29,953 bases of DNA, taken from a virus. The notes under the pieces were generated by a model. That model did not search any database. It saw only the letters and a program-made list of their open reading frames with translations, and had not been told where the DNA came from. How positions within the stretch are numbered: the first letter of the stretch is position 1; each line of letters begins with the position of its first letter. Positions 4,526 to 28,950 of the stretch are shown here, one piece after another. Both the position numbers and the translations under genes were made by a program. The DNA lies in the IMG/VR virus record IMGVR_UViG_3300034190_003011, positions 1 through 29,953 of that record. The stretch is one strand, 5' to 3'.

Positions 4526-6862
4526 TTACCTACTTTCAAAAGTCAAGAAAGCCTGTGCGCCAGTTGATCCAGAGGCGTTACTGAAAATATCTAAAAACAA
4601 AAAGTTTCCGGCTGTTACACTAGGAGTGTTAAAAACTGTTGAAGATCCCGTGACTCCTTGCACGCCAAGCGAACATCCAGTCACCCTACCTGTAAGTGGA
4701 TCACCGAAGTTTGAGCCTGCGACATACACGGCAGCGGTGAATCCACCAGAGCCACTCACTTTGACATCAAAGTTTGTAAGCGTTGCGTCGTAGGGAATAC
4801 GATAGAGTGAATTTGTTTTTGTTCCAGTGGCGATTGCCGAAGATGCGTTGACGGTAAATGTTGCGACATCTGTGTTGCGACGATAAGTAGAATCAAAGGT
4901 TTCTCTGATCGTGCCACCCGTGGTCATTTCTATACTTCCCCCGGAGGCAGGATCAATGTTTACTTTTGTATTAGATGTGACGGAATCCAAATCACCGATC
5001 TGCATGTGCATATCACTTCTAACATCAAGAAATTGACCATTGCCTGTATCAAACATAATATTATTTGTTGGTGACACAGAAAATTCAGATTGGAAAATAA
5101 AAGGATCGTCGTGATCTGTCGTAAATTTGATTCCACCTCCACCTTTTAACGATATCAGTCCTGATGATGCTGTAATTGCAATTGGATCATTTGAACCAGA
5201 GATGTTAATTCCAACTCCATCACCACGATCAGTAATTGTATTCGCACTAATTGTTCCCACATTTACAAGGTTTCCACCCGATAGTCCAACATCGCCACCA
5301 GCAGCGATCAAGTTAATATCACCATTACCAGAGAAAATGTTAGCGTCTGTCTTATCGTGTTCAATACGAACATAATCATTCGCATCATTCGCATCAGCGG
5401 AGTAAACAAGGAATTGAGGATTGGTCATTCCAAGTGCAGTTTTGTCAGAGGCGGACATTGAACGATTTGAACTGTCCAGATGAAATTTATTTATAACAGC
5501 AAAGTGACCGTTGTTCCCATTCACACCCATTCCAATTGTTCCGTCACCATTGGAATTTTGTGCCATTCCTCTGTCCGAGGCATTATTGAAAAATATAGTT
5601 GCCGGTGTTCCGTCTGGAACATTTGTATTTGACATAACAACATCAGTGTCAAGTCTAATTGCTTTGGTTACTTGTGTGCCTGATTCATCAATCACATTGA
5701 CGACAGGACCGAATCCCCATTCGGTTGCATCAATTTCAATACCAAAGTGATTTCCACCCTCATCACTTGGAATGATTTGAATTGATCCGTCAGGACTATT
5801 GCGAATCACTTCACCATTATCGAAAGTAATAGCAGAGGGACCGGAGATTCCTGCACACGGCAGAGTCAGGGTGTCTGTGACAACTGCACCAGTAAGACCG
5901 TTGAAAGAGTTTACACCCTCAACATCACCAGTGACACTGTTAAAAGATTTTACGGTAAATTTACTAAGTTTTATAAACTCCAAAGGAGTATCACCTGCAA
6001 ATGCAATTCCAACGCTTTGATTGGCAAGAAGGGTGGGATCAACATCCCCGCCAAGCCCGCCGCCAGCCGCCACTATTGTGGTTGGGAATGAATAAGTTTG
6101 TGGTGCAAACGGTCCAGAACCAATGCCTGATCCGGGCTTTCCTACCCTAAATGTATTCGTCGAACTAATGTTGGCAAGACCACCCTGTGTAGTGATTCCA
6201 CCAGACGCAGAAATACCAGCAACTTCTAATGTGAGAGCAGTCGTGCTGATTGCACCAGTTAGTCCATTGAAAGATGCCACAAATTCGTGTGGTGCATGGG
6301 CAGATGATTGGAACGATCCGTCTGGGAAGGTCAGTCCCACTCCAAGTGAGATTCCGTTTGCAGGAAAAAACACACCACCAGTCACACTCACTAATCTACC
6401 TTTTGTATCTAACTCAAAAAAGGTTGGAACGGATGTGGATTCACCATTTATGTCGCCGAACGTCACCTTGCTGTTGGTTCTTGAAAAACGAGCAAGGTTG
6501 ACATTATCTCCACCAACAAAAATATCAACGTCTGTGGTAAAGCCAATGGCTCCTGACACAAGACGAATATCACCGTCAACAGTTATTCCAGAAGCACCGA
6601 CAGAGATGCCAGCAAAGGCAAAGGTCAAACCCTCGGTCGTAATCGACCCTGTTGCTCCGTTCAAAAACTCAACAAAGTCACCGACAGGTCCGGTCGCTCC
6701 GGTTGCACCAGTGGCTCCGGTCGAACCTCGGTCGCCGGTTGATCCGGTGGCTCCTGTACCACCACCCAAGCGTTCCCAGACATTTCCGGTATACTCCCAA
6801 GTGTTGTTGCCAACAGTAAGTTTTGTTCCAATTGTGGGATTATCTGGGAAGCGTAACGCCAT
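4526..6862 (-). CDS. Tail-fibre-like virion protein with collagen-like Gly-X-Thr stalk and repeated modules
   Basis: 778-residue fibrous protein. Residues 1-33 (LRFPDNPTIG..., TWEYTGNVWERLG) match the short beta N-terminal module seen on many phage fibres. Residues about 34-62 are nine collagen-type triplets, mostly G-X-T (GAT, GST), then GPV. Three copies of a module beginning with an 'NG.TG' turn (NGATGSITT, NGLTGAIST, NGLTGAVVT) and containing 'AGIS' follow at roughly 66-100, 197-229 and 319-351, with a degenerate piece near 306-317. The rest is Asn/Gly/Thr/Asp-rich beta structure to a C-terminal beta domain that is probably receptor-facing or trimerising. The start overlaps the stop of the GT2-TPR gene (TAATG), coupling the two. 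It is probably a trimeric host-contact or decoration fibre; exact placement on the virion is unknown. Confidence 0.78.
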   Translation of the reverse strand: MALRFPDNPTIGTKLTVGNNTWEYTGNVWERLGGGTGATGSTGDRGSTGATGATGATGPVGDFVEFLNGATGSITTEGLTFAFAGISVGASGITVDGDIRLVSGAIGFTTDVDIFVGGDNVNLARFSRTNSKVTFGDINGESTSVPTFFELDTKGRLVSVTGGVFFPANGISLGVGLTFPDGSFQSSAHAPHEFVASFNGLTGAISTTALTLEVAGISASGGITTQGGLANISSTNTFRVGKPGSGIGSGPFAPQTYSFPTTIVAAGGGLGGDVDPTLLANQSVGIAFAGDTPLEFIKLSKFTVKSFNSVTGDVEGVNSFNGLTGAVVTDTLTLPCAGISGPSAITFDNGEVIRNSPDGSIQIIPSDEGGNHFGIEIDATEWGFGPVVNVIDESGTQVTKAIRLDTDVVMSNTNVPDGTPATIFFNNASDRGMAQNSNGDGTIGMGVNGNNGHFAVINKFHLDSSNRSMSASDKTALGMTNPQFLVYSADANDANDYVRIEHDKTDANIFSGNGDINLIAAGGDVGLSGGNLVNVGTISANTITDRGDGVGINISGSNDPIAITASSGLISLKGGGGIKFTTDHDDPFIFQSEFSVSPTNNIMFDTGNGQFLDVRSDMHMQIGDLDSVTSNTKVNIDPASGGSIEMTTGGTIRETFDSTYRRNTDVATFTVNASSAIATGTKTNSLYRIPYDATLTNFDVKVSGSGGFTAAVYVAGSNFGDPLTGRVTGCSLGVQGVTGSSTVFNTPSVTAGNFLFLDIFSNASGSTGAQAFLTFESR
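5810..6667 (-). repeat. Three dispersed copies of an NG-TG/AGIS protein module in the fibre gene
   Basis: Codons for residues 66-100, 197-229 and 319-351 of the fibre each encode a unit starting with NGxTG, then about ten beta residues, then AGIS and a Gly/Ser-Ile-Thr turn. Spacing between copies is about 131 and 122 residues, suggesting duplicated shaft domains. DNA similarity is visible around the NGLTG codons of copies two and three. Confidence 0.7.
6677..6763 (-). repeat. Collagen-like triplet repeat, Thr at the Y position
   Basis: About 87 nt of GC-richer, internally repetitive DNA (plus strand ggctccggt / gttgcaccagt units) encoding Gly-X-Y triplets: GGT, GAT, GST, GDR, GST, GAT, GAT, GAT, GPV. 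Seven of nine triplets carry Thr at Y, a pattern compatible with O-glycosylation in bacterial collagen-like proteins. Confidence 0.85.
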
Positions 6863-8199
6863 TATCTAACCTTAACTTTTTTGCCTCTCCTTTTATTTAT
6901 CTTGGCTTCTTGCACTCTTTTTCTTTGCATTTCGATTCTTTTTTGTTTTTCTTCAAGTTCTTTTTGTGCAATTTCCTCGACGGCTTTATCGTGAGCCTGT
7001 TTTTGTGCTTCCTCTTCCTTTGCTTTTTGCTGTCCCCACTGCTCATAATGTTTGAAGTTATTTACAATTCTTTCTCTGTGTTGTTCAGGAAAAATATTAT
7101 CTTGTAAAAGTTTCATACTACATTGTAAACCAAGCATCATGTCTCCTGCCTCCGCTGCCGTGGCGGCAACTTCATCATAAATCATCCAGTCATACATTTC
7201 TTTTTGTAAGAAAAGAATATCTCCCTCTGGGAATTGGATACCAAGAGCGGACTTAGCGAACATGTAACCCAAACGAGGATTACCGTTTTGGCGATGGATT
7301 CTAGACAACTGGTACAAAGGCTCAATCCTAGACGGTCTGTAGTTCCACGCTTGTAAGAAATGATCTTGTGCGACTGCCCACGCATCTGGTTTTTTTGACA
7401 TCATAGGCTCAATACAGCAACAAATACCGCAGCGATAGATGCAATACCAAACTTCCTCTTCCCATCCACCAGCCTCAGCCCGTTTTTGGTAAGCGTCATA
7501 TGCTTTTTCATAATCACCCGCGTCAAAGTATGATTGAGCAAGATAAAATTTGTATCTTAAATTATCAGGTTCATAATTTATATTTTCTGGATTTGTTAGG
7601 CAGTCGAGTAAGACCTCAGCATCATGTCTGTATTTTGCCTGCTGATCTTCACCAAATGCTTGAGTTCTATTTCCCATAGTTCTGGCATCAATGGCATAAT
7701 TACCAGCGATTCGATCTGCTTTGAAGTTTCCCTGTTTTTCTCTAAGTTCTGGAGCATCTGCGTATTCATGAACCACTCCGACATACTGCCATCCGACGTT
7801 ATTTCTAAAAATCTGATTACGCCACCAAGTAAAATCACCTCTCGCAATGTTTAGTGAATAGGTGTCTGCTTCACCAAAATTTTCAGGGTAAACAAAATCC
7901 CCAGCCACACGGTCATCAGCATCAATGACCCAAGAGTAATCCGCACCTCCCTTGTCTGCATTACGAAGGGATGCGGTCCTCGACTTGCCGAAGCCCTCCC
8001 ACGGGTGGTCGTACACAGTTCCGGGGATGTTATTTTTTTCACCCCACTCCTTGATAATTTCTTTAGTTCTATCGGTTGATCCTGTGTCTGTAATGTCGAA
8101 ACGATCAACGTAAGGTTTCATCGTATCAAGACACTCATGGATGATGTGTTCTTCATCTTTAACAATCATACAAAGGGTAACGGTTGGTCTACTCATCAT
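6862..8199 (-). CDS. GT2-family glycosyltransferase fused to TPR repeats and a basic coiled-coil tail
   Basis: 445 residues. The N-terminal ~200 residues are a GT-A fold glycosyltransferase: TLCMIVKDEE start, nucleotide-binding ITDTGSTDRT (36-45) and metal-binding VIDADDR (91-97). Residues about 205-370 contain TPR-like helices (YKFYLAQSYFDAGDYEKAYDAY; EPLYQLSRIHRQNGN). From about 385 the chain is a charged coiled coil ending in a strongly basic tail (INKRRGKKVKVR). GT2-TPR fusions are known for sugar transfer to proteins or surface glycans, with the TPR part often binding protein. Two adjacent ATGs (8199, 8196) follow an AAGGA. The stop overlaps the start of the collagen-like fibre gene (TAATG), which makes the fibre a plausible acceptor. 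The donor sugar cannot be deduced. Confidence 0.88.
   Translation of the reverse strand: MMSRPTVTLCMIVKDEEHIIHECLDTMKPYVDRFDITDTGSTDRTKEIIKEWGEKNNIPGTVYDHPWEGFGKSRTASLRNADKGGADYSWVIDADDRVAGDFVYPENFGEADTYSLNIARGDFTWWRNQIFRNNVGWQYVGVVHEYADAPELREKQGNFKADRIAGNYAIDARTMGNRTQAFGEDQQAKYRHDAEVLLDCLTNPENINYEPDNLRYKFYLAQSYFDAGDYEKAYDAYQKRAEAGGWEEEVWYCIYRCGICCCIEPMMSKKPDAWAVAQDHFLQAWNYRPSRIEPLYQLSRIHRQNGNPRLGYMFAKSALGIQFPEGDILFLQKEMYDWMIYDEVAATAAEAGDMMLGLQCSMKLLQDNIFPEQHRERIVNNFKHYEQWGQQKAKEEEAQKQAHDKAVEEIAQKELEEKQKRIEMQRKRVQEAKINKRRGKKVKVR
6894..6901 (-). promoter_or_regulatory. Possible T4-type late promoter ahead of the fibre gene
   Basis: On the minus strand the octamer GATAAATA, one mismatch from the T4 late consensus TATAAATA, ends 31 nt before the fibre ATG, inside the 3' end of the GT2-TPR gene. 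A virion gene would be expected to have late transcription. AT-rich octamers of this kind also occur by chance a few times in 30 kb, so support is weak. Confidence 0.25.
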
Positions 8200-9525
8200 T
8201 TAGTTCCTTGTTTCAAAAAATTTGTCCACCATTGAACAAACATATTTAGTCTGCTCTTCGGTGATGACTGGACTGGTTCCCAAGAAAAAAGTATCTTTCA
8301 TTACTTTAGTGGCGACTGGATACTTTGTTTTTGCATCTAAGTTAGGATATAAATGAGAGTACGCTGGCTGCAACAAAACATTTCCTGCGAAGTAGTTTCG
8401 AGTTTGAATTTTATTTTCCTCCATCCACAGGGTGAAATCTTTTCGATCAAAAGGTGAATTATCTTTTACTGTAAGTGGGAAGGCGAACCAAGATGGATCT
8501 GCTTTGTCTTGTGCTTTGGGTAAGTGGAAATATTCTTCGTATTTTTGAAATGTTTTCAGATATGCCTTGTAGTTTCTTTTTCTCAACTCAATGATTTCTT
8601 CAAGTTTATCCAACTGAACTAATCCCATCGCTGCCTGCAAATCCATAGGTTTTAAGTTGTAACCAATTTCTTCATAAACATATTTGTGGTCAAAAATTGT
8701 GTCTGGCATCGATTCAACCCAAGGCGAAAATCTTTTCCCACACATTCCGTTCTTGAGGCAAGATGCTTTTTCTCCAGCACAGTAACAACCTCGTCCCCAC
8801 TCTCGTAAAGACTTTACAACAACTTCCTCCTCTTTTGTTGAGCAGGCAACAAATCCACCCTCTCCCATCGTGATATGATGTGCAGGATAGAAAGAACAAG
8901 ACGCAAAATTACCAAAAGAGCCAAGCAACTTACCATCATACTTTGATCCCAAAGCATCACATGTGTCCTCTAGCAAAATCAAATCATAATCCTTAACAAT
9001 TTCCATGACTCGATCCATGTTTGGAGGGTTGCCCAAAACATGTGCAAACGTAATTGCCTTTGCCCCGCTTTTTGCAGCATCCTCAAGTTGATCCACATTC
9101 AAGTTAAGTGTATCAATCTCAATGTCAACAAATACAGGCTCATATCCATTCTGTAAAATCGGATTTAATGTAGTCGGGAACCCTGCCACTGGGGTGATAA
9201 TTTTTGTTCCTTCTTTGAAGTCATACAGACGTTTCGACTTGAGTGCAGAAATCATAAGCAAGTTCGCACTTGAGCCACTATTTGTTAACGCTCCATAACT
9301 CTTATCAAACCATGTCTTAAACTTTCGCTCAAAACGAATGCCTCTTTCGCCAAGCACTAACCAACCACCTAGTAGACACTCAATTGTTTTTACAAACTCC
9401 TCATCTGTAAAATATGGACCTGCGTATTGCACCCAGTCCCCTTCTTTCCATTCTTTTTTCTGACGATAATTAGATACTAATTCTCGGATGTCTTGTTCTT
9501 GTTTTTGGGATGTTAAGTTAACCAT
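8200..9525 (-). CDS. rfbH: RfbH/E1-type CDP-4-keto-6-deoxyglucose-3-dehydrase (DegT family, PLP and Fe-S)
   Basis: PLP- and [2Fe-2S]-dependent C-3 dehydration of a CDP-4-keto-6-deoxyhexose, the first committed step to 3,6-dideoxyhexoses. In the 441-residue product the usual aminotransferase Lys is replaced by His in SFYPAHHITMGEGG (211-224), the hallmark of dehydrases. Cys189-X57-Cys247-X1-Cys249 has exactly the spacing of the E1 iron-sulfur motif, followed by Cys256 and Cys262. Length also fits E1 (about 437) rather than the shorter colitose enzyme ColD. A GTG at 9540 is possible, but the ATG at 9525 has AAAGGTG upstream and is preferred. The E3-type ferredoxin reductase partner is not in the window. 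The downstream epimerase at 21485-22546 fits the same pathway. Confidence 0.9.
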   Translation of the reverse strand: MVNLTSQKQEQDIRELVSNYRQKKEWKEGDWVQYAGPYFTDEEFVKTIECLLGGWLVLGERGIRFERKFKTWFDKSYGALTNSGSSANLLMISALKSKRLYDFKEGTKIITPVAGFPTTLNPILQNGYEPVFVDIEIDTLNLNVDQLEDAAKSGAKAITFAHVLGNPPNMDRVMEIVKDYDLILLEDTCDALGSKYDGKLLGSFGNFASCSFYPAHHITMGEGGFVACSTKEEEVVVKSLREWGRGCYCAGEKASCLKNGMCGKRFSPWVESMPDTIFDHKYVYEEIGYNLKPMDLQAAMGLVQLDKLEEIIELRKRNYKAYLKTFQKYEEYFHLPKAQDKADPSWFAFPLTVKDNSPFDRKDFTLWMEENKIQTRNYFAGNVLLQPAYSHLYPNLDAKTKYPVATKVMKDTFFLGTSPVITEEQTKYVCSMVDKFFETRN

Positions 9526-9536
9526 AGTAGCACCTT

Positions 9537-10322
9537 TCACGAAGATTGTAGCATTCTATTTTTCAAACACAAATAAGTTTTTCTAATTCCTTCACACAAA
9601 CCGATACAATCGATTGGTAAATTTGATAACCCACAGTAAAACTCCGAGTCAAAATCACTTTTCATATCAATGTCAACTGTGTGTTCATCTAATTTGTTGA
9701 TCATATCTGCTATGTTTTTTAGGGTAAATTTGTCACCGTAAGTGGCATCAATTTGTTTTGGAGGATTTTTACACTCAATATAAAACTGCACCAATGAGCA
9801 TAAGTCCTCCATGTAAAAAAAGTCCATCAGTTTATTTTTGTGAATGATCATCGATTCTTTGTTCAAGTATCTCACAATGTTTGACTTGATAAATCTTCTG
9901 TCCAATTCATTTTCATCAAAAACTGCATATACTCTAATATTGTAAAAGTTATATTTTTCATACATTGACTCTGCGATAATCTTTTTACTAAGACCATACG
10001 GGGTATCAGTCCTATGAATCTCCGCACCAGAACCAAACGAAATAAATTTGTTGAAATGTTTTTTATTCTGAGATAGGTTATAATACATCATTAAGTTTTG
10101 TTGTAGTGTCATTTGACTCTCTTGCTGTAAACGATTACCGCCAGTGATCGCCGTGTGAATTACAACATCAAACTTTTTTCCTTTGAACCAATTACTTACC
10201 TCTAGTGGATTTGTTAAGTCAAAATCATCTCTGGTGACGGACGTAATATCATAGGTTGGAGATAGTTTATCACACAAACTTTTTGCTATGTATCCGTTGC
10301 CTCCTGTGATTAGAACTTTCAT
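9537..10322 (-). CDS. Extended SDR, RmlD/GDP-fucose-synthase-like NAD(P)-dependent reductase or epimerase
   Basis: 261 residues. Rossmann motif ITGGNGYIAKSL at 5-16 and the catalytic pair Tyr109/Lys113 in YGLSK are present. The stretch DFDLTNPLEVSNWFKGKKFDVVIHTA resembles the 'DITD..AV..ll....PDVVINAA' pattern of dTDP-4-dehydrorhamnose reductase (RmlD) and GDP-L-fucose synthase. It probably reduces or epimerises a 4-keto sugar nucleotide in the cytoplasm. Substrate is uncertain; it could be the 4-reductase for the RfbH pathway (a paratose or abequose synthase role) or make a precursor for another sugar. It overlaps the upstream GT2-like gene by ATGA, with GGAG about 10 nt before the ATG. Confidence 0.72.
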   Translation of the reverse strand: MKVLITGGNGYIAKSLCDKLSPTYDITSVTRDDFDLTNPLEVSNWFKGKKFDVVIHTAITGGNRLQQESQMTLQQNLMMYYNLSQNKKHFNKFISFGSGAEIHRTDTPYGLSKKIIAESMYEKYNFYNIRVYAVFDENELDRRFIKSNIVRYLNKESMIIHKNKLMDFFYMEDLCSLVQFYIECKNPPKQIDATYGDKFTLKNIADMINKLDEHTVDIDMKSDFDSEFYCGLSNLPIDCIGLCEGIRKTYLCLKNRMLQSS

Positions 10323-11170
10323 TTAAACAACTCTCCAGAATGGATACCCATACCCCAATCATTCATGTTTGGGATTCCATATTTTTCAACGGACTCTTTG
10401 ATAAATTTATATTTGTAGCCATTTTGCAAGTCATCTTTTTCATAAACCTTTTCATCTACCTTCAAGGGAATATGGATATTCGCGTACTCCCAATCAAAAT
10501 TATTTACGGAGTGATCATAACACTCCGGTGAAATAACACTCGCACCATGTTCACGATTAGCGACGTAATCAGAAATTTTCCAGTAATATTGTTTGACTCC
10601 CACAGTTTTTTTATCTAACCACTGTAAGTGAGCGATAAACAAATCTGGGAATCCAAAAGTAAAACTATGATCGCTAGATGGCACATGCTCTGAATGACTA
10701 AATGCCTCTTTGAACACACCTCTTTTTTCGTAGCAACCTATTCTTTCGTGAAAATTTACCCTCCACGGTCCATCAACTCTAATCGTATCTTTACTTGTGT
10801 ATTGAATCCATAGGGTCTTGAAAACACAATTTTTATTTTGCTCTAAAACAGTTTCAAGATCACTCTTAGTCATCTCTCCGTCAACATACTCATCTGTATC
10901 AAGACAAATAATCTTTTCACTATGTTTATGTGCTGCATCGTACAATTTTTGTCGAACGTCTGTTTCAACATCAAGGTCGCCATCTTTAAAATCAGTGGTC
11001 AAAATTTCAAGGATATTATACTTGTCTTTATTTTCAGTTAGGTACTCATATGTTCCGTCTGTGCATCTATCGCACATGAAAACAAATCCATCCGCATACT
11101 TTTGCCACTGAGGCAACATCTCCTTTATTAAAAACAACTCATTTCTTGTCATGGTGATTTGAACAATCAT
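10319..11170 (-). CDS. GT2/GT92-like glycosyltransferase
   Basis: 283 residues with GT-A features: MIVQITMTRNE start, a DRCTDGT motif (34-40) and metal-binding LDTDEYVDG (90-98), then ERIGCYEKRGVFKE and LFIAHLQWLDKK, typical of small glycosyltransferases in surface-glycan clusters that contain the 'DxDE' signature. It transfers an unknown sugar. A GTG at 11176 overlaps the AAGGAG, so the ATG at 11170 (5-nt spacing) is the likely start; it overlaps the sugar kinase stop by ATGA. Its stop overlaps the next SDR gene in the same way. No membrane segment is apparent, so it probably acts at the cytoplasmic face. Confidence 0.78.
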   Translation of the reverse strand: MIVQITMTRNELFLIKEMLPQWQKYADGFVFMCDRCTDGTYEYLTENKDKYNILEILTTDFKDGDLDVETDVRQKLYDAAHKHSEKIICLDTDEYVDGEMTKSDLETVLEQNKNCVFKTLWIQYTSKDTIRVDGPWRVNFHERIGCYEKRGVFKEAFSHSEHVPSSDHSFTFGFPDLFIAHLQWLDKKTVGVKQYYWKISDYVANREHGASVISPECYDHSVNNFDWEYANIHIPLKVDEKVYEKDDLQNGYKYKFIKESVEKYGIPNMNDWGMGIHSGELFK

Positions 11171-12114
11171 AGCCACTCCTTAATGTAATTAACCATACCT
11201 TTGAACGGTGTCGCTGACGTATCAATGATGACATCTTTACCATACATTTCTGAAAAAACTTGTTTGAGTGCTGGTAACTTTTTTGGGATACCGCCGGTCA
11301 ACTTAATTTTTGTTTTTTGTTCATCTGAAAAGTAAACACCATACTGCTCTACGAAACTCCGTACAAGAGATCCAAAAAAATTACTTTTCGTTAAAGAACA
11401 CTCATGCAAATTTGTAATACTACCTCCTCCGCCAAATGCAACAGATTGAGGAAAAATGTTTAGGTCAAATTTAATATTTGACTCTAAGATTTCATTGACT
11501 GTTAACTCATGCAATTGATCGAATAAGTCAACTCCTAACTCTGATAAAAATTTATCGTAGCATAAGAATGTTCTTCCGGCAGGGATATACTTGTTTACGA
11601 TAATTTGATTTTTTTGCTTAGTGATTACCTGTGATCCTGTCCCTATATTCACAACGTATTCATTATCATCAATTTCGATGCTGTTAATAACACAGTCCGT
11701 ATCACCAAGAGAACTATAGATAGGCACAGTATTGATGTAACCTAATAGATTCAATCCTGTCACATGTCCTCCATGATGTTCATGGGTGTGGTAGTAAGGT
11801 GACTCGTTGAAAAGACCGCTGATCAAACAAGACTTGTGAGTGTTATTTGGTTCACTTGATTTCCAAGAGTAATAGTTATCACCATGCCAACCGCCACCTA
11901 AAATAGAGCAACAAACAACTCGATCAAATTTTGTGCTTACGATACTGCGAAGCATTGACATCAGTTCTTTTCGTGATGAAACACTTTTTTCAACGAATGG
12001 AGATTTTATCATCTTTTGATCATAAATGGGTGACCACCGCTTCTCCGAAATGGTTGTGTCGTATGTTGCCAGTTTTAAAAATGACGCACCAAAATCAATC
12101 AAAAGATATCGCAC
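11167..12114 (-). CDS. FGGY/ASKHA-type sugar kinase, sedoheptulokinase-like but short
   Basis: 315 residues with the ASKHA phosphotransfer layout: N-terminal phosphate-1 loop LLIDFGASFLKLA (4-16), catalytic GDTDC (137-141) and phosphate-2 NIGTGSQV (156-163), then the adenosine-side KLTGGIPKKLPALKQ. The SLGDTDC...NIGTGSQ part recalls sedoheptulokinases (GD-x-C ... NISTS). Canonical FGGY kinases are about 480-500 residues, so this one is markedly shorter. The GTG at 12120 lies too close to the AAGGAG; the GTG at 12114 has 7-nt spacing and is chosen. It overlaps the cyclase gene by 20 nt, so the two are probably functionally paired: the kinase may make the phosphorylated substrate that a dehydroquinate-synthase-type enzyme needs as leaving group. 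Substrate is inferred. Confidence 0.72.
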   Translation of the reverse strand: MRYLLIDFGASFLKLATYDTTISEKRWSPIYDQKMIKSPFVEKSVSSRKELMSMLRSIVSTKFDRVVCCSILGGGWHGDNYYSWKSSEPNNTHKSCLISGLFNESPYYHTHEHHGGHVTGLNLLGYINTVPIYSSLGDTDCVINSIEIDDNEYVVNIGTGSQVITKQKNQIIVNKYIPAGRTFLCYDKFLSELGVDLFDQLHELTVNEILESNIKFDLNIFPQSVAFGGGGSITNLHECSLTKSNFFGSLVRSFVEQYGVYFSDEQKTKIKLTGGIPKKLPALKQVFSEMYGKDVIIDTSATPFKGMVNYIKEWL

Positions 12115-13114
12115 AAACACGCTCCTTGAATGATTTGTCTAATTTTGTCGGCACGAACTCAGTTAGTCCCGGCTCCCTTACAACAACTAACGTAATAACT
12201 CCGTCCTTTACCTTTTTGTCAGTCTTTGTGATTTCAAAAACTTGCTCCATATCACAACACTGTAATCTTGATAGAGAGGTGAACTTCTCTACCATCTCCG
12301 TAATTTTTGGGTTATTGTCAAAAAGTTGATTTATAATTTCAATACCAAGAAGCACGGCTTCACCATGACAGATAGAATAATTTGTTGCAGACTCAATTGA
12401 GTGACCAAACGAATGACCATAATTTAAAGATTTTCTCTCCAACAATTCAAACTCATCTTTTTCAACGACTTCTTTTTTGATTGCCAGTGAGTGATATATC
12501 TTTTCATCTAGGCTCAGACTATCAAACATATCGACATATTCTTCTCCACCGGTCAGAAAAAGTTTTACAATTTCACCGTGTCCCGATAGGATGTCTCTTT
12601 CTGAAAGTGTCTCCAAAAATTTCGTGTCGATCACCACTTTTTGGGGAGCAGAAAAAAGTGCCAACTGATTTTTGAAATCTTTGAAGTTTAGTGCTGTCTT
12701 ACCACCGATGCAACTGTCGCACTGTGAAAGTAAAGTTGTTGGATAGTATGTCCATTTTATACCTCTTTTAAACATCTTTGAGACAAAAGCACCAATGTCC
12801 TGTAAGATTCCTCCACCAATCACAATCAAAGTGTTTCCTTTATCGAAGTGAAACTTTAGTAACTTTTCACAGACGAGTAAAGCGGTTTCCATTGATTTAT
12901 TTTCTTCGGTTGCATCAATCTCAATCATTCTTTTGTGACTGATGTTGTAAAGACGTTTGACATTTGAATCAACCAAAACAACATCCTTATCGGTAAAGTT
13001 CAGACTTGCCGACTCAAATACTACGTCATAGTTTTCCGGGTGAGAGGTTACCGTCAACTTGTTTTTGTTTTCAAAACAAGGGGTAAACTCAGATTTGTTA
13101 ATAATAAAACTCAT
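12095..13114 (-). CDS. 3-dehydroquinate synthase-like sugar phosphate cyclase
   Basis: 339 residues with the full DHQ-synthase signature: NAD-binding IGGGILQDIGAFV (99-111), YPTTLLSQCDSCIGGKT (124-140), FKNQLALF (147-154), metal ligands Glu181 (GEIVK), His234 and His250 (HGEA), and the R-x-x-L-N-x-G-H-x-x-x-H block (227-238) that binds substrate. Family members catalyse NAD- and metal-dependent oxidation, phosphate elimination, reduction and carbocycle closure of a sugar phosphate. Retention of the Arg and Asn in that block favours a DAHP-like acidic substrate over sedoheptulose 7-phosphate, although the neighbouring kinase hints at the latter. A phage has no obvious need for shikimate synthesis, so a specialised surface cyclitol is more likely. 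It begins 1 nt after the SDR stop. Confidence 0.85.
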   Translation of the reverse strand: MSFIINKSEFTPCFENKNKLTVTSHPENYDVVFESASLNFTDKDVVLVDSNVKRLYNISHKRMIEIDATEENKSMETALLVCEKLLKFHFDKGNTLIVIGGGILQDIGAFVSKMFKRGIKWTYYPTTLLSQCDSCIGGKTALNFKDFKNQLALFSAPQKVVIDTKFLETLSERDILSGHGEIVKLFLTGGEEYVDMFDSLSLDEKIYHSLAIKKEVVEKDEFELLERKSLNYGHSFGHSIESATNYSICHGEAVLLGIEIINQLFDNNPKITEMVEKFTSLSRLQCCDMEQVFEITKTDKKVKDGVITLVVVREPGLTEFVPTKLDKSFKERVCAISFD

Positions 13115-13115
13115 G

Positions 13116-13733
13116 TCAAAAATTCCTCAAAGAGTATCCACCGTCGATAATAATATTTTGTCCAGTCATTGACTGATTATTATTGACTATGAACGAACAC
13201 ATTTTTGCAATGTCCTTTGGTTTGGTCATGCCCAAGGGAATATATTCGTCCAAACTATTTATCCTGTCCTTAGAGTTGTTTTCAAAGGTCATTTTAGTTT
13301 CTACGAAGCCCGGAGAAACCATGTTAACCTTTATGTCTTCGTTGGACATCTCTAGTGCTAATGTTTTTACTGCACCGAGAAGGGCGTGTTTAGACATTGA
13401 GTATTGTATTCTACCCTCTTTGGTGTGAGTGGCGTACAAAGATCCCACCGCTATGATATTCGCACCTCTGTTAAATTCAACGTGTGAGCAAAGGTTCAAA
13501 AAACTAAAAGTATTAACTTGAAAAAGTTTACTTAGTTCTTCGGGGTCAATCTGATTGTATGGCTTCACAAAGTTTACACCTGCGCAATGAATTAGACCAT
13601 CAAAAACACCATCAATAGCAAAACTATCTGTCAAGTTCAACTCTTTTGACGATGGTGAAACAACATCACAGTCCAATTCATCGATAATGGATTTACCGAT
13701 GCCGCCGCTACCTCCTGTGACTAAAATACGCAT
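13116..13733 (-). CDS. Classical short-chain dehydrogenase/reductase (SDR)
   Basis: 205 residues, short for a classical SDR. The cofactor motif GGSGGIG (7-13), NAG-equivalent CAGVN (50-54), catalytic Ser98 and Tyr111-x3-Lys115 (YSMSK), then VSPGFVETKM and the C-terminal GQNIIIDGGYSL all match. It is probably an NAD(P)-dependent oxidoreductase acting on a keto sugar or cyclitol made by its neighbours. A TTG at 13739 is possible, but the ATG at 13733 places the start directly before the Rossmann strand and leaves a 2-nt gap after the ThDP gene. The ribosome binding site is poor, suggesting coupling to the upstream gene. Confidence 0.88.
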   Translation of the reverse strand: MRILVTGGSGGIGKSIIDELDCDVVSPSSKELNLTDSFAIDGVFDGLIHCAGVNFVKPYNQIDPEELSKLFQVNTFSFLNLCSHVEFNRGANIIAVGSLYATHTKEGRIQYSMSKHALLGAVKTLALEMSNEDIKVNMVSPGFVETKMTFENNSKDRINSLDEYIPLGMTKPKDIAKMCSFIVNNNQSMTGQNIIIDGGYSLRNF

Positions 13734-13735
13734 TG

Positions 13736-15460
13736 TCAAATAGTATCAGCAATTTGCATGTCTGTCAATGATCCGGGTATAATTTTTCCATCCTCACCGA
13801 CACCTTTGTGCATGACTTTGGGTTCATGTTTTTCATTTGGGTGGGTAAAAATTTCCATGATACATGGTCCGTCAATAGACATCATTTCTTTCAATTCATT
13901 TTTGATGTTATCATTTTTTGTCATTTTAAGATATGGGATGCCAAAAGCCTTTGCTACTTTTTCATACGAAGGTATTGTTACTCCCGTTTCTGGACCGCTG
14001 GCAAACTCCTGACCCGAAAAAAAAGATTCTTGAGTCATTTTTATAGAGAGGTAGCCATCATTATTAATAATCATTAGTTTGATCGGAAGTTTTTGACTCA
14101 CGACAGTTTCAAGTTCTTGAAGATTCATCATCAAACTACCGTCCCCTTCAATGCAGATGACATCTTTTCTATCATTACCCACACATGCTCCAATCGCCGC
14201 AGGCAAGCCAAAGCCCATGCTGGCACAACCAACATTTGTAAAAAGCCTTTGGTTTTTGTTTAGCCTATACATTTGCAACGTAACAACATGGGCAGTGCCG
14301 TTGCTTGTGACAATTGGAGTGTCTCCAAATACGTCGGGAGCCTGATTAATTAGGTTATAGAAACTAGTGTGACTTTTCAAGTTTTCATGTTTTCTGTGGA
14401 CGTACTCCTGAGACTCTCTGATTTTTTGTGTCTCATTGATCCAGTCACTTATTTCCATTTGTGGTACTTTGATATTATCAAAAAAATCATTAAGGTCGCT
14501 TTGATATGATAGTTCAACATCAAACTTGTGTTTTCTAATTTCACTAACATCAACATCGACTATGACCTTTTTAGATTTTGGTGAAAACTCTGGTATATTA
14601 TAGCCAGTCATTTTGACAGGTAAACGTGAACCTAAGCATAAAATTAAATCACACTCTTGAACAATCTGATTTGATGTCAATTGTCCTAAAATGCCAATCC
14701 GACCACAGTAGTTTTTCAGGGTGTTGTCAACAACATCAACACCAGAGTGTGGACCGGTTACCACGGGTATGTTTGTTTTTTTCAAAAAATGATCTAACTT
14801 GTCATAGGTGTTCGATAGCCTAACCCCGTTGCCTACAATGATCAGTGGTTTTTTAGATTCTTCGAGTAATTTTTCCAACGCAATGTAATTTTTGGCTTTT
14901 TTAGATAGTTTATTGTATGGGATGAAACTACCTTCGCTTACTTTGATGTCAGCACCCTGTATGTCAAGCGGAATGTCGATCCAAGTTGGTCCGGGTCTTC
15001 CTGTCTTGGCAAGGGCATGTGCCTTTTTTACTTCGTGTATGATGTCTTGTGGGTTCTCGATCATCACAGAATACTTTGTCATGTTTTTAACACAACTAAT
15101 AATATCAAACTCTTGATCGCCAATCTGTCTACATCCAGTGCCTCTTGATATTTGATTCAGCGGAACTTGACCTGAGATAATAACACTTGGGATACTATCA
15201 AGCCACATACCCAACAACCCTGTCAGTGTGTTAGTCCCACCCGGTCCTGTTGTCACGATGTTCAAAGACATTTTACCAGATTGACGATAGTAGCCTTCAC
15301 TAGCCATCAAAACAGACTGCTCATGGTGAGGGCATATTGTTTGTAGTTTTGATTTACGCAGCGAATCAATCAGGTGAATGCACCCACCGCCCGATATGGT
15401 AAAGCAGGTATCCACCTCATTTCTTTTAAAATATTCAATAACAAAGTCTGAAACTTTCAT
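13736..15460 (-). CDS. Acetolactate-synthase-like ThDP-dependent enzyme
   Basis: 574 residues, the length of a full ThDP enzyme with PYR, central and PP domains. The activating Glu47 lies in PHHEQSV; TTGPGGTNTLTG and GTGCRQIGDQEFD follow the acetolactate synthase order; the central domain is at about 185-340; the ThDP/Mg motif GDGSLMMN...NND spans about 439-468. Family members decarboxylate pyruvate and transfer the two-carbon unit. Clusters making branched sugars use such an enzyme (YerE) to add an acetyl branch to a CDP-3,6-dideoxy-4-keto-hexose, and an RfbH gene lies in this operon. No regulatory small subunit is present, so branched-chain amino acid synthesis is unlikely. Its ATG overlaps the NeuB-like stop (TAATG). 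The specific reaction is inference. Confidence 0.87.
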   Translation of the reverse strand: MKVSDFVIEYFKRNEVDTCFTISGGGCIHLIDSLRKSKLQTICPHHEQSVLMASEGYYRQSGKMSLNIVTTGPGGTNTLTGLLGMWLDSIPSVIISGQVPLNQISRGTGCRQIGDQEFDIISCVKNMTKYSVMIENPQDIIHEVKKAHALAKTGRPGPTWIDIPLDIQGADIKVSEGSFIPYNKLSKKAKNYIALEKLLEESKKPLIIVGNGVRLSNTYDKLDHFLKKTNIPVVTGPHSGVDVVDNTLKNYCGRIGILGQLTSNQIVQECDLILCLGSRLPVKMTGYNIPEFSPKSKKVIVDVDVSEIRKHKFDVELSYQSDLNDFFDNIKVPQMEISDWINETQKIRESQEYVHRKHENLKSHTSFYNLINQAPDVFGDTPIVTSNGTAHVVTLQMYRLNKNQRLFTNVGCASMGFGLPAAIGACVGNDRKDVICIEGDGSLMMNLQELETVVSQKLPIKLMIINNDGYLSIKMTQESFFSGQEFASGPETGVTIPSYEKVAKAFGIPYLKMTKNDNIKNELKEMMSIDGPCIMEIFTHPNEKHEPKVMHKGVGEDGKIIPGSLTDMQIADTI

Positions 15461-16533
15461 TACACGATATCACTTTTTGTAAGGGGTGAATCCTTTTTCA
15501 TATCCTTACTAAGTGTAAAGTCCTCGTCAAAATATTGTCGTGATGTGATATGTCCGATTTCTTTTTGATACGGGATTGCACTATAAAAATGCTCAAGTTT
15601 AAGTTTTGTTCCCTTTTTAAGATCAGTCTTTAGATACAGACCTCGGTACAACGACTCAAGATAATTTGATTCTTTATTGTCGATAACTCTTCTTTCATCC
15701 TTTGAAGTCCCACACATCACCTTGGCTCTGTTGAAAGCCTTGAACCACTCATCAACCTGATGAGGCAGTGAACAATACTTTGATACCTCTTTTTGTTCGT
15801 GACCACTAGGGTACGGGATATCAATGTGTCTTTCCCATGTCCTTGCACCTTTGGCGTAAGAAATATACATCGAAGAGTGCCAGTCATGATACTCATGTGT
15901 TGACAATCCTACCACCAAGTCTGGATATTTTTGTTTCAGATAATCGATCTGGTTTAGTTCCAACTCACTATCCTCACTAGGATATTTTGAAACACAGTGA
16001 TTAATTGCTAAAGGGATGTTTCTGTTTGTAAAAAATTTAATCATGTCATCGATCTGCTTATCATTAGCACCACCAGTTGAAACAATCACTGGTTTCCGTG
16101 TGCTTGCAATCTTATTAAGTAAGATCCAATCATTGATATCAGAACTTGCGACCTTGATAATAGACAATCCTAATTCAACACACCAGTCAACCGACTTTTC
16201 ATCAAACGGTGTGGACATTGGGATGCAGTCATGTTTTTTAATATACTCGATTAACTCCCTGAACTCTGGCAGTGTGAGTTTTGTTTTAGATGTTTTTTGA
16301 ATGTACCGACTTCTTTTCGGTAAAGATCCTAATTCCTCTCCACTACCCTCTTTCAAAAAGGATGGGTGAATAAAATTATCTACGTCTCTAAACTGCAACT
16401 TGATCGCAGCCTTGACATTATTTTCCTTAACAACTTTCGCAAACTGACGAACAATCTTTTTACCTCTTTCTAGAGATCCCCAGTGATTGTTAGCCAATTC
16501 TAAAACAAACAAGTTTTTAAAGATGTTTCCCAT
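15460..16533 (-). CDS. NeuB-like sialic/nonulosonic acid synthase family protein with SAF domain
   Basis: 357 residues. The TIM-barrel NeuB pattern is clear: ELANNH (12-17), AIKLQF (43-48), STPFDEKSVDW (107-117), KVASSD (127-132), VSTGG (151-155), NHCVSKYP (178-185), GLSTHE (209-214) and ERHID (234-238) in place of the usual E-K/R-H-F-T. Residues about 290-350 form the antifreeze/SAF C-terminal domain. The family condenses phosphoenolpyruvate with a sugar to make 2-keto-3-deoxy acids. NeuA, NeuC and Pse/Leg genes are absent, so true sialic acid synthesis is not shown. The ThDP enzyme is coupled immediately downstream, suggesting an unusual nonulosonic or related product. GAGGG lies about 5 nt before the ATG. 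Confidence 0.85.
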   Translation of the reverse strand: MGNIFKNLFVLELANNHWGSLERGKKIVRQFAKVVKENNVKAAIKLQFRDVDNFIHPSFLKEGSGEELGSLPKRSRYIQKTSKTKLTLPEFRELIEYIKKHDCIPMSTPFDEKSVDWCVELGLSIIKVASSDINDWILLNKIASTRKPVIVSTGGANDKQIDDMIKFFTNRNIPLAINHCVSKYPSEDSELELNQIDYLKQKYPDLVVGLSTHEYHDWHSSMYISYAKGARTWERHIDIPYPSGHEQKEVSKYCSLPHQVDEWFKAFNRAKVMCGTSKDERRVIDNKESNYLESLYRGLYLKTDLKKGTKLKLEHFYSAIPYQKEIGHITSRQYFDEDFTLSKDMKKDSPLTKSDIV

Positions 16534-16540
16534 GTATCCC

Positions 16541-17497
16541 TCACCAAATGAATTTATTTTTATAATACTCTGCGATGTTTACGATCTCGTCATCAAATTG
16601 TTTTTTCGGACTCCAACCCAAAGATCGAAGTTTTGAATCGTCCAAGGCGTATCTCACATCCTGACCGACCCTAGAAAATGAAGTATCCACATAGTCAAGG
16701 ATATCATAGTCCTCACCATCAGTCAATACATTAATCAGTTTACGCACGGTTTCCATATTTGTTTGTTCAAAACCACCCGCAATATTGTAGATTTCATTTT
16801 TAACATCCGAATCAATAATTGTTAAAATAGCCTGTGCTGTGTCCTCTGCGTGTAGCCAATTACGAACAGGAGTGCCGTTATTATGAAGTGGAATTTTTCT
16901 TCCTAACTTCATAAACTTGCACGTTTTCGGAATCAACTTTTCGACATATTGACCAATCCCATAGTTATTCGTGGGGCGAACAATAACGTAAGGGATTTTG
17001 TAAGTTCTCGCCCATGCTAACACCAACATATCGGCAGCAGCCTTTGTTGCCGAGTATGGGTTTGATGGTTTAAGTAAATCGGTTTCTGTGTGTGCGCCAG
17101 TTTCAATATCACCATACACCTCATCGGTGCTAAAGTGTAGAAGCGTTGGGATTTTACTGTGTTCCTGTCTATATTCTTTGATTAACTCCAAGATATTGTG
17201 AACACCATTGATATTTGACTCTACAAAGTCATCACTGTTTGCAATTGAATTACCTACATGAGTCTCCGCTGCGGTGTTGATAATGTAATCACAGTCATAC
17301 AAAAATTTCAAATCGTTAATATCACAGTGAACAAACGAAAAGTTATCGTATGATTCAAATTCATCAAGAAGGTTTTTATTTGCCGCGTATGTGATTTTAT
17401 CCACACCCTTGACGTACCATCCTCGATCAAGACACAAACGAGTAACGTATGAACCAATGAATCCAAGACATCCTGTAACGTAAACCACTTTTTTCAT
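16541..17497 (-). CDS. dTDP-glucose 4,6-dehydratase (RmlB)-like extended SDR
   Basis: 318 residues. Glycine motif TGCLGFIG (8-15); the signature STDEVYG (123-129) with the Thr-Asp-Glu catalytic trio of 4,6-dehydratases; Tyr148/Lys152 in YSATK; and RPTNNYG plus RVGQDVRYALD near the C-terminus, as in RmlB. It converts an NDP-glucose to the 4-keto-6-deoxy sugar, the common precursor of most deoxysugars. The nucleotide (dTDP or CDP) cannot be fixed by eye; in this operon it could feed the RfbH-type dehydrase, although RmlB proper is dTDP-specific. A TTG at 17527 is possible, but the ATG at 17497 starts just before the Rossmann strand, 1 nt after the upstream stop. Confidence 0.85.
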   Translation of the reverse strand: MKKVVYVTGCLGFIGSYVTRLCLDRGWYVKGVDKITYAANKNLLDEFESYDNFSFVHCDINDLKFLYDCDYIINTAAETHVGNSIANSDDFVESNINGVHNILELIKEYRQEHSKIPTLLHFSTDEVYGDIETGAHTETDLLKPSNPYSATKAAADMLVLAWARTYKIPYVIVRPTNNYGIGQYVEKLIPKTCKFMKLGRKIPLHNNGTPVRNWLHAEDTAQAILTIIDSDVKNEIYNIAGGFEQTNMETVRKLINVLTDGEDYDILDYVDTSFSRVGQDVRYALDDSKLRSLGWSPKKQFDDEIVNIAEYYKNKFIW

Positions 17498-17498
17498 T

Positions 17499-18356
17499 TT
17501 ATTCTTTCTCACTTTTGTAAAAGTCAACTAGATGCTCAATGGTGGAATCGATATCATAGTCTTGCTCATAACCATACGATTTTAGTTTCGTTGTGTCAAG
17601 ATAAGAATGTCTAACTTGTACGATATCGTGAAACTTGGTGGGATTGATATTAATAATTTTTGATTCTGACCCCGAATAATCAATCGCCTTTTTAATCATG
17701 TCAATAAATCTATGAGGTCTTCCACTACCAATATTTATGACCTCATCAGTGGGTGCTTTGTCAATGCAAGTTTTGATGCCTTTACAGATGTCATCAACAA
17801 AAATGTAATCCCTCATAACGTCACCACCGTAATACAAAGGAACATCATTACCATTTACAATTTCTTTGATCAAGAATTGTAGTGCGTTTTTCTTTTTAGA
17901 GATTTTTTTATCACCAGATCCCAGCACATTAGCGAGTCTGAAAATTCTATACTTGATATCATGAGTTTCACAAAAAGAAATCAAGAGTTGCTCGGCACAA
18001 TGTTTAGTGATCGAGTAAAACCCAGTTGGTTCACATCTTGAAAAGTCCTCTCTAAATGGAAGTTCATAATTTTTTCCATACACGAACCAAGAACTAACAA
18101 AGTTAAATGTTGTGTCGCTGTTCTTATCAATATTTTCCAATACATTCATAAGCACTTTGAGGTTTGTGTCAATATCAATGTGCAAACTGTCGTGCATGTT
18201 GTAGTTGTCAACTGTGCTTATGAAGTAAAGAATGTCTTTTGTTTTTGGTGTATGATCATCACGATCAATCGGAACAACTATTTCTGGGTACAACTCGGTA
18301 AATCTCCCACCGATAAAACCCGTTGAGCCAAAAACAGAGAGTTTACTTTGACTCAA
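17499..18356 (-). CDS. NAD-dependent epimerase/dehydratase family protein
   Basis: About 285 residues. Rossmann motif FGSTGFIGG (9-17), a Ser at SSW and the pair Tyr114/Lys118 (YSITK), RDYIFVDDICKG and VINIGSG typical of UDP-glucose-4-epimerase-like extended SDRs. The substrate is unknown; with its neighbour RmlB-like enzyme it may reduce or epimerise a 4-keto-6-deoxy sugar nucleotide. The start is uncertain: there is no ATG before the Rossmann strand. A TTG at 18356 preceded by AAAGGGG gives a 14-nt overlap with the oxygenase gene and is preferred over the TTG at 18398, which would overlap by 56 nt and lacks a good ribosome binding site. Confidence 0.75.
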   Translation of the reverse strand: MSQSKLSVFGSTGFIGGRFTELYPEIVVPIDRDDHTPKTKDILYFISTVDNYNMHDSLHIDIDTNLKVLMNVLENIDKNSDTTFNFVSSWFVYGKNYELPFREDFSRCEPTGFYSITKHCAEQLLISFCETHDIKYRIFRLANVLGSGDKKISKKKNALQFLIKEIVNGNDVPLYYGGDVMRDYIFVDDICKGIKTCIDKAPTDEVINIGSGRPHRFIDMIKKAIDYSGSESKIININPTKFHDIVQVRHSYLDTTKLKSYGYEQDYDIDSTIEHLVDFYKSEKE

Positions 18357-27655: not shown

Positions 27656-28108
27656 TTACTCGGTGAGTGTTCCTTTTGCAATACGAATATCACGAAGTTC
27701 TTGGAAATCTTTTTTCTTCGTGCCGCCATCGTATGACCAAGCGTAACCTTCCTCGATCATTTGCTCGTTGAGTGAAACCAAATCGTCACCGATGTAGAGC
27801 CAGCCGAGAAGTCTACCATATTTCCCCACGCCGCCATCGAGTTCGGTACGAATCACAAGGTCATCCTCACCAGAGATTGCACCATCGAGATGCTCTTTCA
27901 TCCAGTCGGTCGCGTCTTGACCAAGTGCTTTTTCTTCAAGATCCCGTGTTCTCTTTTCGGGTGTATCGACACCAGCGATACGAACACGCTCTTTCTTGTA
28001 GAGGTCAAACCCTAAGTCGATGATGACATCAATGGTATCTCCGTCAAGAACCTTGACGATCTCTGTAACTCTAAAGTTGTAACACGATTTTCTGCTGGGT
28101 GGTTTCAT
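27656..28108 (-). CDS. Thermonuclease (staphylococcal nuclease-like, SNase domain)
   Basis: 150 residues, almost entirely one SNase OB-fold domain. The catalytic pattern is complete: DGDT (22-25), RIAGVDTPE (43-51) giving Arg43, Asp48, Thr49 and Glu51 with the same mutual spacing as SNase Arg35/Asp40/Thr41/Glu43, and Arg99 in GKYGRLLGWLY. No signal peptide is visible, so it should act in the host cytoplasm, perhaps in host DNA breakdown or nucleotide recycling. Similar genes are common in marine T4-like phages. The start overlaps the regA stop (ATGA), with TAAGGA upstream. The glycan island begins 20 nt after its stop, so it marks the boundary. Confidence 0.95.
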   Translation of the reverse strand: MKPPSRKSCYNFRVTEIVKVLDGDTIDVIIDLGFDLYKKERVRIAGVDTPEKRTRDLEEKALGQDATDWMKEHLDGAISGEDDLVIRTELDGGVGKYGRLLGWLYIGDDLVSLNEQMIEEGYAWSYDGGTKKKDFQELRDIRIAKGTLTE

Positions 28109-28572: not shown

Positions 28573-28950
28573 TTAGGAGCCTTGCATTTTCAGGACATGC
28601 TGGTGGATATCGTCGATTTGCTCGTCGGACAAAACCTTCATGGCTTCAAGTGCCTTTTTTGTTCCAAAATTATAATAAAGTTTTACAGAATCGAGTCTTT
28701 TGTCTTCGGCTTTCTTGATCCACCGGCTGAATCTTCGACGCTTTCTGATCGAATGACGCAGATAATCAAACTGCTCCTGCTTGCCCAGATCGGCATGAGT
28801 ATTCATCTCGTTGGCTTGCAGGATCGTGTCAGGGAAGTAGGACAGACAACGATTGATGATGAAAGGGGCATATCCCTTCGCGGCTTCCTCGTCCGCGAAG
28901 AGATCGTCCTTAGAGTAGTTGATTGCGTTTAGGTAGTCGCCAAGTTTCAT
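28573..28950 (-). CDS. 62: Sliding-clamp loader small subunit gp62
   Basis: 125 residues, predicted helical. FIINRCLSYFPDTILQANEMN (30-50) followed by DYLRHSIRKRRRFSRWIKKAED corresponds to the T4 gp62 stretch around 'LSQFPECMPAVYAMN' and 'YL..A.PRGKRYGKWAK'. T4 gp62 has 187 residues, so this is a shorter form like those I recall from marine T4-likes. With gp44 it forms the ATPase that loads the gp45 clamp for gp43. The start overlaps the methyltransferase-like gene's stop by ATGA rather than gene 44 itself, unlike T4, where 44 and 62 are adjacent and coupled. Confidence 0.88.
   Translation of the reverse strand: MKLGDYLNAINYSKDDLFADEEAAKGYAPFIINRCLSYFPDTILQANEMNTHADLGKQEQFDYLRHSIRKRRRFSRWIKKAEDKRLDSVKLYYNFGTKKALEAMKVLSDEQIDDIHQHVLKMQGS

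Follow-up and report, generated by a model that had tools for sequence, protein, structure and literature searches.

The IMG/VR virus contig IMGVR_UViG_3300034190_003011 (positions 1 to 29,953; the whole stretch of 29,953 bases is referred to here as the window) carries a group of five genes at 11167-16533 that encode a NeuB-like synthase, a thiamine diphosphate (ThDP) carboligase, a short-chain dehydrogenase/reductase (SDR), a dehydroquinate synthase (DHQS)-like cyclase and an FGGY-type kinase. These genes form a conserved biosynthetic cassette, whose recurrence, in the same order in viruses, exceeds chance, and the last four of them are exchanged between phages as one block. We tentatively propose, with a confidence that falls slightly short of even, a phage-borne pathway leading to an unusual surface-glycan sugar activated by a nucleoside diphosphate (NDP), which would be extended by carbon-carbon bond formation, contain a carbocycle and be exchangeable with the block. 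The proposal draws on protein families, conserved residues, co-inheritance, block exchange and cellular homologues, all read from sequence, and from these we infer every substrate, in what order carboligation and cyclisation occur, and the function at the cell surface.

Scans of viral contigs with the NeuB and ThDP proteins as queries brought in the contigs L002-L051. The order NeuB-ThDP-SDR-DHQS-kinase, followed on the same strand by an extended SDR gene named epi3, was found in ten of them (L002, L004, L005, L009, L010, L018, L019, L026, L028 and L051), where neighbouring genes mostly overlap or lie a few nucleotides (nt) apart, and further near copies of the cassette exist beyond these ten. 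Contig L036 carries ThDP-NeuB-SDR-DHQS without the kinase, and the ThDP gene of L018 (9062-10757) is split by a frameshift into two overlapping open reading frames (ORFs), possibly an assembly error. Single-protein scans of the viral contigs with the DHQS-like protein and with the kinase gave no matches, and isolate phages and plasmids yielded no close relative of either NeuB or the kinase. The cellular loci were found by a genome scan with a kinase alignment: the five-gene set is present in Pelagibacteraceae (SAR11; L060, and L058 in part) and in other marine metagenome-assembled genomes (MAGs; L054, L056, and L055, which is cut by the contig end); there the gene order differs, and some of the genes are on the opposite strand. 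Clostridial kinase matches were rejected as cassettes, being without cassette neighbours. The preliminary description of this DNA, made from the sequence without database searches, had named a search for the five genes together as a check on its proposal of one pathway, and such co-occurrence is indeed found in about ten other virus contigs, in SAR11 and in other marine genomes. The full set is nevertheless rare, because the kinase was confined to the query genomes among the 395 genomes sampled from the phylum of G006 and the 398 from that of G001. Correlations between the distance matrices of the five genes range from 0.88 to 0.96, and the ratio of non-synonymous to synonymous substitutions (dN/dS) is 0.09-0.29 where not saturated; the five genes are under purifying selection.

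Parts of the set also occur on their own. NeuB-ThDP pairs without the other cassette genes were found in L122, L127 and L128, which belong to the same phylum; in L128 (8328-9833) and L127 (8605-10182) the NeuB directly upstream of ThDP is 501-525 amino acids (aa) long, with a C-terminal cupin in L128. The Winogradskyella locus L053 contains DHQS, kinase, SDR and ThDP together with a DmpG/HMGL-like aldolase gene (7204-8208) next to ThDP, and no NeuB of the cassette clade was found at E 1e-20 in this genome, which is a MAG and may be incomplete; the aldolase apparently stands in place of NeuB.

Several phages carry a short form of the locus, in which epi3 follows NeuB-ThDP either immediately or after a methyltransferase-like or unidentified gene; a DHQS gene and an intact kinase gene were both missing from the short-form contigs searched. 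Changes between long and short labels were counted on trees of 19 to 21 phages, excluding L003 from the count, which was labelled short merely because its contig ends in ThDP. The ThDP tree shows a single change, with a support of 100/100 on both sides, as opposed to 4 changes for NeuB and 8 each for epi3 and for the 4,6-dehydratase gene that precedes NeuB. In the dehydratase, NeuB and epi3 trees, the short-form phage L008 and the long-form phage L026 group as sisters, yet they fall into opposite ThDP clades; their nucleotide identity is about 87% across NeuB, at the stop codon of NeuB the value falls to about 62%, and from epi3 on the two are homologous again. A similar drop at the NeuB stop is seen for L017/L018, while that of L004/L013 is less sharp. 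Furthermore, L027 has a short-type ThDP gene followed, just before epi3, by a broken C-terminal kinase stub (10785-11036) with stops and a frameshift, the kind of remnant that replacement of a long block should leave behind. Taken together, the label changes, the identity drops at gene junctions and the L027 stub indicate that ThDP-SDR-DHQS-kinase is exchanged as one unit against a shorter ThDP(-methyltransferase) block, with dehydratase, NeuB and epi3 staying in place. The binding of NeuB to the other four genes, as assumed in the preliminary description, therefore finds no support, since the block swaps while NeuB stays, and since the block genes occur in Winogradskyella without a NeuB of this clade. 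Because ThDP is co-exchanged within the block, the ThDP enzyme in our reading probably shares its target molecule with the kinase and the cyclase. In L021, NeuB and ThDP are separated by a HAD phosphatase gene (4730-5374), and ThDP is followed by a gene for an FkbM methyltransferase; L023 looks similar.

That parts of the set occur separately, in the short-form phages, the NeuB-ThDP pairs and the Winogradskyella locus without a NeuB of the clade, would also fit parallel pathways merely packed together for one polysaccharide, with NeuB making a nonulosonic acid, ThDP and an RfbH-type enzyme encoded nearby a yersiniose-like sugar, and DHQS, kinase and SDR an independent cyclitol. We consider this improbable, as ThDP is strictly co-exchanged with SDR-DHQS-kinase, the five genes are clustered in differing orders in distant bacteria, and a CMP-sialate synthetase was not recognised in the sugar gene island of the window or in the cellular cassette loci read.

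In the window, the five ORFs lie at the positions given in the preliminary description, are intact and are on the minus strand, and their families were confirmed by hidden Markov models (HMMs) or, for the kinase, by predicted structure. The family assignment by HMM is clear for NeuB, the ThDP enzyme, SDR and DHQ synthase, with all of them below the listed equivalog cut-offs. NeuB (15460-16533) and ThDP (13736-15460) overlap by 1 nt and ThDP and SDR (13116-13739) by 4 nt, SDR and DHQS (12095-13114) are separated by 1 nt, and DHQS and kinase (11167-12120), the last gene of the swappable block, overlap by 26 nt. A single pathway had originally been deduced from this tight order. However, the packing by itself is not evidence for the cassette, because nearly every gene of the contig touches its neighbour, with the majority of adjacent gene pairs in the window overlapping or at most 10 nt apart; what sustains the cassette is that the same five genes recur together.

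The short kinase alone had no match in Pfam or NCBIfam, including the FGGY profiles PF00370/PF02782. Its AlphaFold (AF2) model has a mean confidence score (pLDDT) of 86, the top Foldseek matches of the model are FGGY kinases (xylulokinases, E 1.5e-10), and VIA-align superimposes it on the L-rhamnulose kinase 2cgk with a Z-score of 20.9 over 304/317 residues. D140 and the GTGSQ motif are invariant. On the basis of the model, the protein is predicted to be an FGGY-type kinase with the two-domain fold, the catalytic Asp and the phosphate motifs. In bacteria, the homologues have 370-430 aa, more than the phage protein; the one from SAR11 has weak FGGY_N and XylB matches and reaches 24.6 bits in the FGGY profile comparison (cut-off 28.8). 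Where the kinase gene and a DHQS-like gene were both detected, they were always next to each other.

The DHQS-like sugar-phosphate cyclase (PF01761/PF24621) has the metal ligands E181, H234 and H250 and the pocket residues R227, N231 and K301. Together with R117, D133, K139, N149, these are conserved in 12 of 12 aligned sequences, in which the H275 position is Asn twice; Arg227 and Asn231, singled out in the preliminary description, are thus of the DHQS type throughout. The equivalents in Aspergillus nidulans DHQS (R130, D146, K152, N162, E194, R264, N268, H271, H287 and K356), which have roles in metal binding and catalysis, are kept in all twelve. Among the solved structures, the cyclase profile scores DHQS highest with 147-218 bits, followed by 2-deoxy-scyllo-inosose synthase (DOIS) with 133, the valiolone-type cyclase ValA with 119 and desmethyl-4-deoxygadusol synthase (DDGS) lowest with 113. 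Because of the DHQS-type pocket and these scores, a carboxylate-bearing substrate resembling 3-deoxy-D-arabino-heptulosonate 7-phosphate (DAHP) seems favoured over sedoheptulose 7-phosphate, in a comparison with ValA and DDGS by profile score. The cyclase reaches 220 bits against the AroB equivalog TIGR01357 (cut-off 305), and the best NCBIfam model in phage and cells is TIGR04425, for which the window protein has 289 bits (cut-off 400). The cassette cyclases form a single clade apart from AroB and DOIS with a tree support of 100/100, and a second, AroB-like DHQS copy is present in four of the five cassette genomes searched (G002, G003, G005 and G006). Most of the phage and plasmid DHQS matches listed were rejected as housekeeping AroB, being annotated aroB or without annotation, and L151, which adjoins a shikimate-kinase-like gene, looks like a true aroB and marks the score boundary. 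The Ebo-cluster cyclase EboD was dropped as a counterpart, as its gene set differs.

These data bear on two further explanations. In a valiolone-type route, as the preliminary description had offered for its "sedoheptulokinase-like" enzyme, the kinase would phosphorylate a ketoheptose, perhaps one made by the ThDP enzyme, at position 7, and the cyclase, as a sedoheptulose-7-phosphate cyclase, would convert the product into a C7-cyclitol. Although FGGY kinases phosphorylate ketoses and a ThDP enzyme could make one, ValA and DDGS have the lowest scores, the N and K of DHQS are kept at the N268 and K356 positions, and no sedoheptulokinase was among the fold matches listed for the kinase (Foldseek, VIA-align). 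No evidence found here ties the kinase to sedoheptulose, although such an activity is conceivable, and we regard this route as very improbable. The second explanation develops the analogy with shikimate synthesis already drawn in the preliminary description: NeuB would join phosphoenolpyruvate (PEP) to a tetrose to give a 3-deoxyheptulosonate, the kinase would add the 7-phosphate, the DHQS-like enzyme would form a dehydroquinate-like cyclitol acid and the SDR would reduce it, while the ThDP enzyme would handle a different sugar of the same glycan. The retention of the R264, N268 and K356 equivalents in 12 of 12 cyclases, the top scores of DHQS structures and the overlap of the kinase and DHQS genes are in line with it, and to this extent the analogy stands. 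It is weakened where NeuB is concerned, as SDR-DHQS-kinase co-segregates with ThDP and not with NeuB, and NeuB is found with ThDP but without the cassette DHQS or kinase. Moreover, NeuB-family enzymes normally use hexose-size aldoses, so that a tetrose would be unusual. This shikimate-like scheme as a whole, including the separate sugar for the ThDP enzyme, is in our view rather unlikely, though worth keeping in mind.

The NeuB-like protein, the constant gene product beside the block, belongs to PF03102 (3.7e-39) and is a putative PEP-dependent 3-deoxy-2-ulosonate synthase. It scores 125.9 bits (cut-off 340) and 116.8 bits (cut-off 400) against the NeuB/PseI equivalog models, and its nearest solved structure is 3g8r. 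Both motifs with a metal-ligand His, HE and E(R/K)H, keep this residue without exception. In this clade, the position of Arg314 of Neisseria meningitidis NeuB, which contacts the N-acetyl group, is Ile, and because of this the sequence suggests an aldose substrate without an N-acetyl group. Neither NeuC nor CMP-sialate synthetase is encoded in the cassette. The acetolactate-synthase-like ThDP carboligase (PF02775/PF00205/PF02776), the first gene product of the block, reaches 358 bits against acetolactate synthase TIGR00118 (cut-off 538), and its nearest solved protein, 8rph (333 bits), is not an acetolactate synthase; literature on this type of enzyme was not found in open-access sources. The SDR of the block belongs to PF13561 (3.9e-34).

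The operon continues on both sides of the cassette. A dTDP-glucose 4,6-dehydratase-like gene (16541-17527; TIGR01181, 302.9 bits, cut-off 365.1) forms the constant flank 7 nt upstream of NeuB and is about 65-80% identical across the virus loci. Downstream, a gene (10319-11176) for a GT2-like glycosyltransferase (GT), whose PF13704 match of 6.3e-06 narrowly misses the cut-off, shares 10 nt with the kinase gene and separates it from the RmlD/Fcl-like epi3 (9537-10322; PF01370, 2.2e-14), an order unlike that of most virus relatives, in which this constant gene directly follows the kinase. All of these genes are on the minus strand, as are all likely genes of the window. The next gene (8200-9540) is aminotransferase-like in appearance, but scores 468.8 bits with NF011936 (RfbH), above the curated cut-off of 423, and has a His at the site of the Lys binding pyridoxal phosphate (SFYPAHHIT) and a Cys motif; this His was found in 26 of 26 DegT homologues aligned from related loci. 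By these features the protein is identified as RfbH, an NDP-4-keto-6-deoxyhexose 3-dehydrase of the E1 type that would use pyridoxamine phosphate and a [2Fe-2S] cluster, and together with the 4,6-dehydratase it should produce an NDP-4-keto-3,6-dideoxyhexose. The ThDP enzyme YerE of yersiniose A synthesis uses this type of acceptor. Because RfbH and the 4,6-dehydratase would supply it, a YerE-like role of the ThDP enzyme is plausible, and the reasoning of the preliminary description had left out both genes. On virus contig L049 (8001-10710), a distant ThDP gene is directly followed by an RfbH-like gene with the Cys motif.

Cellular neighbourhoods add to this picture. In G1372 (SAR11 class), NeuB directly follows genes for glucose-1-phosphate cytidylyltransferase, CDP-glucose 4,6-dehydratase and an RfbH-like protein (RfbF-RfbG-RfbH-like); the cyclase and ThDP genes of this genome lie on a different contig, in the vicinity of GtrA and a GT2. 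DdhA- and DdhB-type genes lie beside RfbH-like and NeuB genes in L153. GtrA adjoins the cassette in L060, and similar small membrane genes were seen by inspection in L054, L056 and L058; the presence of GtrA beside the cassette in cells points to a lipid-linked surface sugar as the product. The window itself is a T4-like phage contig, encoding clamp-loader subunits, a RegA-type translation repressor, dUTPase and a T4-like-type DNA polymerase. Its sugar/glycosyltransferase island of about 21 kb lies between an endonuclease gene (27656-28108) and a fibre-like gene (4526-6862), and in the region 2121-29953 island and fibre-like genes are placed between gp44-gp62-RegA-endonuclease and the dUTPase-DNA polymerase genes. 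The G+C content of the cassette is 36-39%, compared with mostly 43-48% in the core phage genes. A methyltransferase-like ORF (28947-29567) is located between the gp44 and gp62 clamp-loader genes.

In the proposed pathway, the 4,6-dehydratase and RfbH would prepare the NDP-4-keto-3,6-dideoxyhexose, while NeuB would form a 3-deoxy-2-ulosonate from PEP and an aldose that is probably no N-acetylhexosamine. A 4-hydroxy-2-oxo acid would in this way come from NeuB or, in Winogradskyella, from the aldolase. 2-Oxo acids serve as donors for ThDP enzymes. The ThDP enzyme would join an acyl group from the NeuB-made 2-oxo acid or from pyruvate to a sugar ketone or aldehyde, comparable to YerE; the resulting chain would bear a ketone and, at its end, a free hydroxyl for the FGGY-type kinase to phosphorylate. 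The DHQS-like enzyme could then expel the phosphate and close the carbocycle, and the SDR, with epi3, would reduce the remaining ketone. Exchange of the block would alter the final sugar and keep the shared steps, akin to serotype switching. The co-exchange of ThDP argues for a cyclisation step tied to this enzyme. A number of observations weigh against the pathway as proposed: the DHQS-type carboxylate-binding positions argue for cyclisation of the ulosonate itself before decarboxylation and not for carboligation first; the NeuB product as donor in the ThDP step is an inference; a recombination hotspot at the NeuB/ThDP junction could partly explain the co-segregation of ThDP; RfbH and 4,6-dehydratase were not recognised near the cassette in the about 20 kb read of L060 (SAR11); and by score the dehydratase of the window is of the dTDP type, whereas CDP-sugars are the classical substrates of RfbH.

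We found no description of the five-gene combination in a limited search of the open-access literature, in agreement with the preliminary description, which knew of no characterised pathway of this kind. A phage-borne polysaccharide sugar cluster is a known kind of system; there is a real chance that the sugar chemistry here is new. It is conceivable, though we hold this with more doubt than belief, that a mobile carboligase-kinase-cyclase-reductase block performs a shikimate-type closure of a NeuB/ThDP-made chain, giving a new class of carbocyclic, carbon-extended sugars, and that phages exchange the block and thereby change the surface glycan. Carbocyclic and long branched sugars are known from a few bacterial polysaccharides, and a compact gene set in SAR11 and phages could make them. 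For one such polysaccharide sugar, bradyrhizose, a published report describes the genes as unknown and proposes a candidate cluster of 11 Bradyrhizobium genes, of which its text names a dTDP-glucose 4,6-dehydratase gene (PMC4743980). If true, our proposal would bring ring formation of the shikimate kind into the making of glycans, and the exchange of the block, with its fixed breakpoints between genes, suggests that phages change surface sugars by swapping an entire set of enzymes.

Compared with known systems, the cassette shares with the nonulosonic acid synthases NeuB and PseI the fold, the metal ligands and the SAF domain of its synthase, but differs in scores far below the equivalog cut-offs, in the Ile at the Arg314 position and in having neither NeuC nor CMP-sialate synthetase. 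With the sedoheptulose 7-phosphate cyclases (ValA/EEVS, DDGS) and DOIS, the cyclase has the fold of the DHQS superfamily and the metal site in common; ValA/EEVS and DDGS are, however, the most distant by profile score, and at the sites where the cassette cyclases carry Asn-Tyr/Phe-Gly-His and Asp-Lys-Lys, the structure of DOIS shows Glu-Tyr-Gly-His and Asp-Asn-Lys, with Glu for Asn and DNK for DKK. TIGR04425, the AroB-related putative sugar phosphate phospholyases (cyclizing), remains the best model for the cyclase, yet below its cut-off, and the function of this family is putative by name. The polysaccharide island of the window resembles that for yersiniose A synthesis (DdhA/B/C, YerE, YerF) in that it combines a 4,6-dehydratase, a 3-dehydrase of the RfbH type, a ThDP enzyme similar to acetolactate synthase and an SDR. 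In contrast, the cassette adds NeuB, kinase and DHQS-like cyclase, the window dehydratase is of the dTDP type, and the yersiniose set (DdhA, DdhB, DdhC, DdhD, YerE, YerF) is incomplete, with no DdhA- or DdhD-like gene recognised in the window. The shikimate pathway, from DAHP synthase to AroB, likewise begins with a PEP-dependent carbon-carbon bond formed by a TIM-barrel synthase and employs a cyclase of the DHQS fold, whose metal ligands and pocket residues recur in the cassette enzyme, whereas the cassette has a separate kinase, a ThDP enzyme and an SDR, a synthase of the NeuB family instead of a DAHP synthase, and a cyclase that belongs to a distinct clade and is an extra copy beside AroB.

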